Source: a virus
Length of the DNA stretch: 28,643 bases
IMG/VR virus record: IMGVR_UViG_3300035201_000250
Location: 1-28,643 of that record
Direction: 5' to 3' (one strand)
The notes under the pieces: generated by a model
What the model was told of the DNA's origin: nothing
Seen by the model: the letters and a program-made list of their open reading frames with translations, nothing else
Databases searched by the model: none
Made by a program: the position numbers and the translations under genes
Part shown: positions 85 to 12,559 of the stretch, piece after piece
Position numbering within the stretch: position 1 is the first letter of the stretch
Layout of the letters: the number at the start of each line of letters is the position of its first letter

Positions 85-98
85 ATCTAAATAGATAT

Positions 99-970: not shown

Positions 971-1404
971 CAATAACTCTTGAAACACTTCAAGAGATGT
1001 GGGAAAGAGATTCAAATATAGACCGAGACAATCTACACGAAGAATCATTGAAGATCCCATCTCTTCATGCAAAATACTTTGAATTATATAATACTATATT
1101 CCTTTTAAGAAAGAAAGCAGAGCAGCAAAGGAAAAATATCCGCCATGAACGGTATGAGTATTTTAGCGGGAAAGCAGACCCTGAAGTTTATGTAGAGAAT
1201 CCTTTTCCAAAGAAGATAAGGGATAAGGATACTATGCAAAAGTATTTGGATGCTGACTCTAAATTATCTAACACTTCTTTAAAGATTGATTACTATGACA
1301 CGATGTTAGTTTATCTGGAAAGTATCCTTAAAGTAATACAAAATAGAACATTTCAAATTAAAAATGCTATTGAATTTATGAGATTTAACTCTGGATTGGG
1401 ATAA
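967..1404 (+). CDS. uvsY: UvsY recombination mediator
   Basis: A 145-aa homologue of T4 UvsY (137 aa). UvsY is a hexameric mediator that loads UvsX recombinase onto gp32-coated single-stranded DNA. The fold is largely helical with basic patches, for example around residues 48-62 (RKKAEQQRKNIRHERYEY), followed by a YF.G..DPEVY...PFPKKI motif and a C-terminal helix pair 'YLESILKVIQNRTFQIKNAIEF', all typical of the family. As in T4, uvsY is close to uvsW. The start overlaps the upstream stop as ATGA, suggesting translational coupling to the tail-tube-like gene. Confidence 0.9.
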   Translation: MTITLETLQEMWERDSNIDRDNLHEESLKIPSLHAKYFELYNTIFLLRKKAEQQRKNIRHERYEYFSGKADPEVYVENPFPKKIRDKDTMQKYLDADSKLSNTSLKIDYYDTMLVYLESILKVIQNRTFQIKNAIEFMRFNSGLG

Positions 1405-1407
1405 ATA
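1400..1407 (+). promoter_or_regulatory. T4-type late promoter (GATAAATA)
   Basis: GATAAATA matches the T4 late promoter consensus TATAAATA at 7 of 8 positions. It overlaps the uvsY stop codon and lies 20 bases before the next ATG. It would be read by host polymerase carrying the gp55 encoded in this window. Confidence 0.55.
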
Positions 1408-1427: not shown

Positions 1428-2447
1428 ATGAAGACTTTTAAAGAGTTTAAATCAATAATAGAAGGTAAGTATAGTGATGAGGATGCTTTTAGAAAAAATT
1501 GGAATCATTTTGTTGTTCATCCCAAGTATGGGAAAACAGTAAAGTCTCATTTGGATGCAGGTAAAACAGATTCTGCTAAAAGAGAAATAGAAAGAGAACT
1601 TCAAAAAGCAAAAACTGATCCTAAACATCCATTAAGTTTTGAAAAAGCGAGGAGAGGGTTTACTAAAGGTAAATCTCCTGCAGATAAAAAATCTTATGAA
1701 GATGAAATGCAAAATGCTCCCGATAGTGTTATTGCTTGGTCTCAAGGAAGAAGAGGAAAAAGTCATCAACAAAGAGGATTACCTGTTCGGGTTACTGGAG
1801 GAGAAAAAGCAGATACTACGGGAGAATGGAGAAGCACCATTAGTAAAAAAGTAGATACAGCAAAAAGAGATATAGAAGGATATGATCCTAAAAATCCCAA
1901 ATATGGAATAGGCGTTAGTTTAAAAATGGGAAAAGGATCTCAAACTATGTCTGGTGGTACTGGAGAGACTTCTGCAACATGGAAAGCAGCTGCAAAAGAA
2001 ACTGAAAAAAATATGAAAAAATCTGGGACATCTTCTTCAGAGATAAGTACTTTTAAAAGTGATACTAATAGAATGGTTAGTAAATTAGCACGTGCTCAAC
2101 AATTGGGAAAAAGCAATCCTAATTTTGCTTCTAGAAGTAATATAAGTGATAGAAGAAGTGCATTAATGCAAAAAATGATGGATAAATATATGTCTAAGTA
2201 TCCCCAAACAGCTAGTCAATTTGATAAAGAAGCAGCGGGTGGAAGACATAAATTTGGCAAAAGTGTTTCTGCAGGGAAAGGTGGTGCTCAAGAAGTGGTA
2301 ACTGGTTCTCATAAAGATAAACTAGCAAATGTTCAAGATATACAACATCGTGGAAGAATGACTCCTAAATCTAAACCTGCATCTAGAGCACCAAAATCAT
2401 CTACAAGAGATGCTGCTGTTACGTTAAGAGTAAAACCAACTCCATAA
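1428..2447 (+). CDS. Basic protein with capsid-targeting leader; candidate packaged/injected protein
   Basis: A 339-aa, Lys/Arg/Ser-rich protein that I do not recognise by name. Residues 1-13 are MKTFKEFKSIIEG. This closely parallels the capsid-targeting leader of T4 internal proteins IPII and IPIII (MKTYQEFIAEA) and contains a gp21-type prohead protease site, (L/I)-x-E before a small residue, here I10-I11-E12 then G13. The centre has an Asp at 148 followed by VSLK (163-166) and a SQ.MSGG segment (171-177), reminiscent of the D...(E/S)xK core of PD-(D/E)xK nucleases. A further conserved-looking block is EAAGGRHKFGKS (268-279). The C-terminal third is low-complexity and very basic. A late-type promoter precedes it. 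No Shine-Dalgarno is visible before the ATG. Packaging inside the capsid and nuclease activity are both inference. Confidence 0.7.
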   Translation: MKTFKEFKSIIEGKYSDEDAFRKNWNHFVVHPKYGKTVKSHLDAGKTDSAKREIERELQKAKTDPKHPLSFEKARRGFTKGKSPADKKSYEDEMQNAPDSVIAWSQGRRGKSHQQRGLPVRVTGGEKADTTGEWRSTISKKVDTAKRDIEGYDPKNPKYGIGVSLKMGKGSQTMSGGTGETSATWKAAAKETEKNMKKSGTSSSEISTFKSDTNRMVSKLARAQQLGKSNPNFASRSNISDRRSALMQKMMDKYMSKYPQTASQFDKEAAGGRHKFGKSVSAGKGGAQEVVTGSHKDKLANVQDIQHRGRMTPKSKPASRAPKSSTRDAAVTLRVKPTP

Positions 2448-2471: not shown

Positions 2472-3959
2472 TTGATTAATACTCATAATGCTGATGTTGT
2501 TATAGGAAAAGCGAATGAAGTATTTTTGCAGATAAAGGCAGAGCCTCATATCTATATGGAACTTTCAGACCATTTCACTTTTGAAGTGGAAGGTGCAAAG
2601 TTTATGCCTCAATACCGTAATAAGTATTGGGATGGAAAGATTCGTTTATTCTCAACATCCAATGGACAAATTTATGTTGGTTTATTAGATAAGATTGTAA
2701 GTTTTTGCAATAGGCACGGATATACCTATTTCTTTGAAGAGAACAAATATTTTGGACAACCATTTGAAGTTAATGATTTAATTTCTTATGAAGGTGTTAA
2801 GCAATATATGACCTCAATTTCTAGACATAAACCTAGAGATTATCAAATTGAGGGAGTATACGATGCATTGCGACATAATAGAAGGCTATTGATATCTCCC
2901 ACTGCATCTGGCAAATCGTTGATGATTTACGCTCTAGTAAGATACTACACAGATAGGCACGAAAAAATATTGTTAGTTGTTCCCACGACATCTCTTGTAG
3001 AGCAGATGTACAAGGATTTTCAGGATTATGGTTGGGATTCTGAGTCATATTGCCACCGCATCTATTCAGGAAAAGAAAAAGAAACTGATCAACCAGTAGT
3101 TATAACAACCTGGCAATCTATCTATAAGTTAGATAGATCATGGTTTGAAAAATTTGGAGTTATAATTGGTGATGAAGCACATCAATTTAAATCTAAATCT
3201 TTAATTCAGATCATGACCAAATTACATACAGCTAAACATAGGTTTGGATTTACTGGAACTTTAGATGGCACACAGACCCATAAATGGGTCTTAGAAGGAC
3301 TGTTTGGCCCATCATATAAGATCGTTAGAACAAAGGAATTGCAAGAGAAAGGTTATCTTTCTAAATTAGATATTACTTGTTTAGTGCTCAAACATCCTCC
3401 ACAAAAGTTTGATGTATATGAAGATGAAATTCAATATCTAATATCGCATGAACAAAGAAATCACTTTATAAGTAAATTGACTTTAGACTTAAAAGGTAAT
3501 ACACTAGTGTTATATAGCCGAGTGGAAACACATGGCGCAATACTTTTTGAAAAGATAAATAGTTTCAAGCGAGGTGACCGAAAGGTATTCTTTATCCATG
3601 GTGGAGTGGATGCAGAAGAAAGAGAAAAAGTAAGAGAAATTACCGAAAAAGAAAACAATGCAGTAATCGTTGCATCTTACGGGACATTCTCAACTGGTAT
3701 AAACATTAAGAATTTGCATAATGTAATATTTGCTTCACCAAGCAAATCTAGAATAAGAAATTTACAATCTATAGGGAGAGTACTAAGAAAAGGGAAAAAT
3801 AAAATTAAAGCGATGCTTTATGATATTGCCGATGATTGTACTCATAACTCCAAAAAGAATTACACACTAAATCATTTTATTGAACGAATTAAGATTTACA
3901 ACTCAGAAAATTTTAATTATGACATAATCACTATACAGTTAAAAAAAGATGGGGATTGA
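2472..3959 (+). CDS. uvsW: UvsW DNA/RNA helicase (TTG start)
   Basis: A 495-aa superfamily 2 helicase close to T4 UvsW (503 aa), which unwinds R-loops and branched recombination intermediates and helps switch from origin- to recombination-dependent replication. The N-terminal domain ('WDGKIRLF', 53-60) precedes motif I ISPTASGKS (141-149), motif II DEAH (234-237), the SAT-like TGTLDG (261-266), and motif VI QSIGRVLRKG (432-441). No in-frame ATG exists before residue 29. The frame opens only at 2448 and the T4 alignment needs the segment before residue 29, so TTG at 2472 is the best start. No Shine-Dalgarno is seen. The frame is the same as the gene upstream, from which one TAA separates it. 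Confidence 0.93.
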   Translation: MINTHNADVVIGKANEVFLQIKAEPHIYMELSDHFTFEVEGAKFMPQYRNKYWDGKIRLFSTSNGQIYVGLLDKIVSFCNRHGYTYFFEENKYFGQPFEVNDLISYEGVKQYMTSISRHKPRDYQIEGVYDALRHNRRLLISPTASGKSLMIYALVRYYTDRHEKILLVVPTTSLVEQMYKDFQDYGWDSESYCHRIYSGKEKETDQPVVITTWQSIYKLDRSWFEKFGVIIGDEAHQFKSKSLIQIMTKLHTAKHRFGFTGTLDGTQTHKWVLEGLFGPSYKIVRTKELQEKGYLSKLDITCLVLKHPPQKFDVYEDEIQYLISHEQRNHFISKLTLDLKGNTLVLYSRVETHGAILFEKINSFKRGDRKVFFIHGGVDAEEREKVREITEKENNAVIVASYGTFSTGINIKNLHNVIFASPSKSRIRNLQSIGRVLRKGKNKIKAMLYDIADDCTHNSKKNYTLNHFIERIKIYNSENFNYDIITIQLKKDGD

Positions 3960-11668: not shown

Positions 11669-12559
11669 GTGGCATGGTGGTTGGCTTATGAAGAACTTTA
11701 TGGTGAAATGGACAAGGAGTATCCTATTATGAGTGATAATGATACAATAGGAATTGGAACTGATGCTATTGGTGCAGCAGATACAGTAGCATTTAATTTT
11801 AATGAAGGTGGAGGAGAGGACGTTGTAATTTTTGGAGGAGATTCCTCAGATACAATTTCCATATATGGTGCACAGGATTTTAATTATGGATCTAAGTCTG
11901 CATTTGGAACTGATACAATAACTTTTAGTTCTTCCACACTTGCAGGTGCTGTTGGATCAGATACTATTAATTTTAAAATTAAGGGTGCTGGTGATTATTT
12001 TTCTGATTTAAATGCTCCTTATCCTTATCCTGCCGATCATCCTAGTCAAGATTTCTGGAAAGAAGACGGATTTAGTCTTACAGGAAATCCTGGTGCTATG
12101 GCATCTGATACTATTAAATTGACTGATGATTCTTATCCTACTCTTGGAGCAGTTGCAGGATCGAGAGTTAAAGGGGGAATGGGTGAGGATCATATTAGTC
12201 TTAATCCATATCCAACAAAACCTTTTACTAAGGTTCCAGAACCTTCTCTTAACAAACCAGGAGTACATAAGTATGAAGAAGATAAAGGTATTAAGGATCT
12301 TAAAGATTATGTGGCCTCAACGTATTCTGGGCATTATACTACCAAAGGATCAAACGTCCAGACACTTGATCTTATCGAATCCGTTGGTGATGCAGAGTCT
12401 TTTTGCCGCTCTAATGCCATTAAGTATTTGAGTAGGTATGATAAGAAGGGACAGGCAAGACGTGATATACTAAAGGCACTGCATTATTGCTTACTTCTTT
12501 ATTACTTTAGTGGCAACACACAAAATGAAATTACGACCCGTGGTTATGAAACTTTCTGA
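11669..12559 (+). CDS. Asp-Thr repeat protein fused to a DUF3310 domain
   Basis: A 296-aa protein in two parts. Residues 213-282 (YVASTYSGHY ... QTLDLIES ... FCRSNAIKYLSRY ... ARRDILKALHYC) match the DUF3310 family, found in many phages and sometimes called nucleotide-kinase-like, for which no activity is firmly known to me. Residues 21-182 are acidic, Gly-rich and carry repeated (S/T)DTI motifs (near 24, 60, 81, 97, 146), a beta-rich repeat of unknown role. The GTG start at 11669 has GGAGG nine bases before it. ATG at 11729 (MSDNDTIGIG) has AGGAG nine bases before it and is a serious alternative. The end overlaps gp45 by 14 bases. Confidence 0.75.
   Translation: MAWWLAYEELYGEMDKEYPIMSDNDTIGIGTDAIGAADTVAFNFNEGGGEDVVIFGGDSSDTISIYGAQDFNYGSKSAFGTDTITFSSSTLAGAVGSDTINFKIKGAGDYFSDLNAPYPYPADHPSQDFWKEDGFSLTGNPGAMASDTIKLTDDSYPTLGAVAGSRVKGGMGEDHISLNPYPTKPFTKVPEPSLNKPGVHKYEEDKGIKDLKDYVASTYSGHYTTKGSNVQTLDLIESVGDAESFCRSNAIKYLSRYDKKGQARRDILKALHYCLLLYYFSGNTQNEITTRGYETF

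Follow-up and report, generated by a model that had tools for sequence, protein, structure and literature searches.

The product of ORF 1428-2447 (plus strand, 339 residues) is probably a PD-(D/E)XK-like nuclease that is packaged in the phage head, trimmed by a gp21-type protease and injected into the host; packaging, cleavage, injection, activity and target are all features that we infer. In the proposed mechanism, the phage is a marine one of the T4-like, Kyanoviridae type, and the product would sit inside its head. Residues 1-12 would serve as a capsid-targeting sequence (CTS), by which the protein, made late, would enter the prohead core during assembly, and a gp21-type prohead protease would then cut after I10-I11-E12. 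The basic mature protein (residues 13-339) would remain among the packaged DNA until it is injected upon infection. For this mature part, the prediction is a nuclease of PD-(D/E)XK type that structurally resembles HinP1I and MspI and carries the variant motif D148-x15-S164-x-K166; the injected nuclease would most likely cut DNA early in infection, either the host chromosome or competing DNA.

The window, that is, the whole stretch of DNA analysed here (28,643 bases; IMG/VR record IMGVR_UViG_3300035201_000250, positions 1 to 28,643), has marine cyanophages and single-cell virus contigs as its closest named relatives. Its gene order is T4-like: a tail-tube-like protein, uvsY (967-1404), ORF 1428-2447, uvsW (2472-3959) and the late sigma factor are followed by genes for recombination endonuclease subunits, clamp loader, polymerase and helicase. 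No head genes lie within the window. A DUF3310 protein encoded at 11669-12559 is extended at its N terminus, outside the DUF3310 match, by a long stretch that is acidic and repeat-like (DTIGIGTDAIGAADTVAF...). The product of ORF 1428-2447 matches no family in Pfam or PHROGs. It is indeed as basic as the first-pass annotation had described, with 70 Lys/Arg versus 37 Asp/Glu and a pI of 10.1. The same annotation had proposed a late-type promoter for the gene; a T4 late-promoter-like octamer is present upstream (Table 1), but across the entire window 8-mers of this sort show no enrichment, and the octamer is therefore weak support.

Table 1. Coordinates of the features of the window discussed in the text (a slash marks a predicted cut)
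Feature	Position	Strand	Basis or remark
TCTAAATA octamer	86-93		just 5' of the ATG of ORF 99-395
Second leader-bearing ORF, MKNFKDFIKE/HNKQ...	99-395 (leader 99-128)	+	pattern scan
GATAAATA, T4 late-promoter-like octamer	1400-1407	+	consensus match only; 20 nt 5' of the ATG
Putative capsid-targeting leader, residues 1-12 (MKTFKEFKSIIE), then G13	1428-1463	+	sequence layout, homologues
Codons of leader residues F4; F7; I10; E12	1437-1439; 1446-1448; 1455-1457; 1461-1463	+	
Predicted mature protein, residues 13-339 (GKYSDEDAF...)	1464-2444	+	HinP1I/MspI-like endonuclease fold, predicted
Predicted catalytic strands, D148 (1869-1871) and S164-L165-K166 (1917-1925)	1869-1925	+	invariant in 42 of 42 rows

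The ORF begins with the 13 residues MKTFKEFKSIIEG (window 1428-1466), which had been likened to the leaders of T4 IPII and IPIII (MKTYQEFIAE/A in the fetched T4 sequences, with the cut marks on T4 leaders placed by the L/I-x-E rule). The T4-style layout is real, but the nearest T4 leader is that of IPI (MKTFKEFTSTTTPVSTITE, then A), with which residues 1-7, MKTFKEF, are identical. In T4, residues 4 and 7 of the CTS are the chief determinants of targeting, residues 8 and 10 those of processing, and the cut made by gp21 follows L/I-x-E (PMC9026906). The window leader has aromatic residues, F4 and F7, at the T4 targeting positions, and I10-I11-E12 forms an L/I-x-E-type site. This site is two residues off the position found in IPII and IPIII; that of IPI, T-I-T-E19 in the fetched sequence, indicates that the protease site can sit further along a leader. 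Overall, the window protein shares with T4 IPI, IPII and IPIII the MK-T-aromatic-x-E-F start, the L/I-x-E site and an upstream late-promoter-like octamer.

The likeness to T4 leaders is more than chance. One might object that the motif is short, that MK-x-aromatic starts easily arise in Lys/Phe-rich, AT-rich genomes, and that three internal methionines match the leader-plus-site pattern (aromatics at residues 4 and 7, then [LIVF]-x-E) as well. However, eight phage stretches with about 1,500 internal methionines between them yield these 3 (0.2%), versus 2 of the 40 ORF starts in the window; in P-RSM6 the pattern occurs at 2 of 187. Given also the seven-residue identity with T4 IPI and the conservation of the Glu in every homologue that reaches this region (see below), coincidence is a very remote explanation and already disfavoured.

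A close family consists of a homologue in cyanophage P-RSM6 (CPXG_00038, 46% identity) and proteins from three contigs (L005-L007); in L006 the gene likewise sits between uvsY and uvsW. Through a distant relative in contig L004, further members were traced in Pelagibacter phage HTVC008M, Methylophilales phage Melnitz and Microcystis phage Mel-JY01. In viral contigs, 302 related stretches were picked up by a profile scan, and no cellular relatives were found in the genome contigs searched with the patterns used. The leaders of the relatives are very unlike one another (MQGFKTFLSE/AKVKAEDYEA, MGVMMKGFKDFIDEPVDLQE/QRLKAEDYEA and MSLRKYVRQLKPVQENYIAPEVKIQSLLSE/SLKAEDYEA, for example), and leader length in the family runs from about 9 to 50 residues. 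The family alignment has 42 rows, 41 of which extend to the columns of the leader/core boundary, and in all 41 the sequence [L/I/F]-x-E lies directly N-terminal of the conserved core: column 71 (E12) is E and column 69 (I10) is L, I or F throughout. The first-pass annotation had placed a gp21-type I-x-E site before Gly and suggested a search for the leader in homologues; the putative site, I10-I11-E12/G13, is conserved among them.

Measured another way, [LI]-x-E falls no more than 4 residues from the core in 36 of 37 distinct leaders, the mean for shuffled leaders being 2.5; this score was reached in 0 of 20,000 leader shuffles, a figure that ignores the kinship of the sequences and, because the alignment rows are related, is not a probability. 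On a tree of the core, leader type switches several times while the site is retained throughout, which is the pattern expected of a cleavage site under selection. The disordered-predicted leader also stops where both AlphaFold models turn ordered. As a point against the proposal, some relatives (L021, L043, L057, L064 and L069) carry a non-aromatic class of leader, MSLRKYVRQLKP...LLSE; this may be another type of capsid address with the same terminal protease site.

Some family members, namely SSM1_188 of S-SM1 and one in Mel-JY01, are leaderless, and so not all relatives are packaged by this route. Along with the location of the gene between uvsY and uvsW, in L006 too, these members could be taken to mean that the leader has some general role at the N terminus of the family, for instance in capping a helix or in docking to the tail or baseplate, and that the protein is a late or recombination nuclease acting inside the infected cell. 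This interpretation is improbable. In P-RSM6 and the SAR11/methylophage relatives the gene is placed elsewhere, beside cytidylyltransferase-like and DUF6267 genes; the leader varies freely apart from the protease site and is predicted to be disordered; and leaders of this type occur on unrelated proteins, one of which has been detected in virions.

The occurrence of the leader on other proteins argues for a capsid-targeting role. The two pattern genes of P-RSM6, the homologue of ORF 1428-2447 and a cytidylyltransferase-like gene, lie in one cluster. In the window, the search of other genes that had also been suggested turned up, besides ORF 1428-2447, ORF 99-395 (MKNFKDFIKE/H), whose body contains a Cys pair, a CPxGxYYD...KKC motif and an Asn/Gly-rich repeat tail. 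The body of ORF 99-395 is retained with a changed leader in contigs L181-L187, and a similar body in P-TIM68 follows a different leader protein, to which it is fused. A near-identical leader, MKNFKDFITE, heads a protein (L188 3001-3087, L189 1039-1125) whose remainder is unrelated to ORF 99-395, which again points to a leader that can move as a module.

The cytidylyltransferase-like proteins of cyanophages begin MK[KNS]F(S/N)AFL-x-E/A. One of them, SSM1_190 of S-SM1 (cluster T4-GC190), begins MKKFSAFLNE/A, the same leader layout as in the window protein, and its gene is near members of the window-protein family in P-RSM6, S-SM1, HTVC008M and Melnitz. T4-GC190 was found in purified S-SM1 virions by mass spectrometry (Sullivan et al. 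2010; PMC3037559); it is an unrelated enzyme, and the detection concerns T4-GC190, not the window protein. Virion proteomics was found neither for this phage nor for any other in which a leader-bearing form of the window protein is known.

Leaders are also seen on DUF6267 proteins, which have a KxDG ligase-like motif and adjoin the family genes (L004 2791-4017, L061 8906-10123 and L075 9074-10291). In SAR11-type phages these include leaders such as MNFTDFITE/Q; the DUF6267 proteins of P-RSM6 and S-SM1 have no leader. Very short DUF6267 leaders (MLLVE/DK) were left out of the evidence because the E may be part of the core. P-TIM68 encodes a 171-aa protein (L002 14620-15135) with the N terminus MKTYKEFIQDIQE, very near the T4 IPII/IPIII leader.

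Cleavage at the proposed site presupposes a suitable protease, and gp21 is encoded in phages related to the window virus. The T4 gp23 cleavage site, L-T-E65/A66, aligns with L-M-E/A in the major capsid protein of P-TIM68 and with L-N-E/A in that of P-RSM6. This retention of L-x-E/A argues that the site preference of the protease is probably the same as that of T4 gp21. The cleavable capsid-targeting leader of the first-pass annotation is thus supported by four independent lines: site conservation, predicted disorder, the same type of leader on unrelated proteins, and the gp23 L-x-E/A alignment.

What that annotation missed is the resemblance of the mature protein to MspI/HinP1I-type endonucleases, in predicted fold and likely function. 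AlphaFold2 models were obtained for the window protein (mean pLDDT 70; residues 1-14 below 50) and for a homologue that is 25% identical (mean pLDDT 80; residues 1-11 below 50, core mostly above 90). With VIA-align, the window model was matched best by MspI (Z 9.8) and HinP1I (Z 8.2 and 7.3), with other chains at about 6 and the Dna2, Cas4-like, AdnAB and EcoRV nucleases lower down the list. The homologue model gave HinP1I at Z 10.6 and MspI at Z 9.8, the next unrelated chain scoring 4.4. About 200 residues aligned to HinP1I/MspI in both models, so that the shared predicted fold extends over this length at Z 8-10.6. A plain Foldseek search of the PDB with the homologue model yielded weak E-values and no restriction enzyme among the best 50 by E-value, and the fold claim accordingly rests on VIA-align re-scoring of both models. 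PDB profile searches gave no useful match to the protein, and hhalign of the 42-sequence profile against HinP1I gave a probability of 1.4, meaning no sequence homology. The claim is therefore one of likeness in fold and likely function, not of membership.

D148, S164 and K166 are invariant in the alignment and would fit a variant PD-(D/E)XK site, in which S164 stands in place of the usual D/E/Q/N. HinP1I has the same K-x-D ... x-x-K arrangement, with K-S-D62 ... Q-V-K83 in the checked sequence; its active-site residues we take to be D62, Q81 and K83. The window protein differs from HinP1I and MspI in having S for Q/N and an N-terminal leader, and in that sequence homology is undetectable. It differs from T4 IPI and IPII in its restriction-endonuclease-like predicted fold and in a mature part that is far larger; we know of no T4 internal protein that is a nuclease. 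The T4 internal proteins are packaged proteins, whereas for the window protein we infer packaging. A link to a partner cytosine methyltransferase (one in Melnitz is annotated as HhaI-like) was dropped, as a motif scan gave only two viral contig loci, and none was seen in the window.

The likeliest role for such a protein would be an early attack on host or competing DNA, judging by analogy. In T4, EcoRI endonuclease and staphylococcal nuclease have been fused to IPIII or its CTS, indicating that the route can carry nucleases (PMC9026906, PMC3012670). Chloroviruses such as PBCV-1 likewise encode restriction-type nucleases that are carried in the particle, and these have been proposed to break down the DNA of the host in a matter of minutes (PMC7019647). 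The chlorovirus case is an analogy only: these viruses belong to another realm, enter cells differently and have no CTS/prohead-protease route.

The main rival is a protective role, in which the protein would be packaged and cleaved as proposed, but the restriction-enzyme-like fold would guard the injected genome, as T4 IPI* does, instead of cutting host DNA; it might block or titrate host restriction, or handle DNA ends. The protein is very basic, a Ser replaces the usual acidic residue of the motif, and IPI, whose leader is the nearest, is injected and inhibits the GmrSD endonuclease (PMC3012670). Nevertheless, none of the 42 rows departs from D148, S164, K166 and a number of other polar residues, a pattern more in keeping with catalysis than with a decoy. 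Protection is unlikely, though less so than a general N-terminal role of the leader.

To our knowledge, detailed accounts of injected head proteins are confined to a few enterobacterial and giant phages. A broader proposal, tentative and somewhat short of probable, is that abundant T4-like phages infecting marine cyanobacteria, SAR11 and methylotrophs hold in the head, and inject, a kit of enzymes with swappable, self-removing leaders, among them a restriction-endonuclease-like nuclease directed at host DNA. Injected enzymes are frequent in myoviruses, as argued in a survey of effectors packaged by phages (PMC9503650), and what is new here is thereby limited to payload, marine phages and leader rule. 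In viral contigs the payload, which resembles a restriction-type nuclease, has about 300 relatives, and the leader-plus-site rule allows the proteins that marine T4-like phages probably deliver at entry to be listed from sequence only. Early host takeover in SAR11 and cyanobacteria thereby becomes directly testable in isolates, for example P-RSM6, HTVC008M and Melnitz. If the proposal is true, the nuclease of the injected kit would be a bacteriophage counterpart of the packaged restriction enzymes of chloroviruses, acting from the first minutes.
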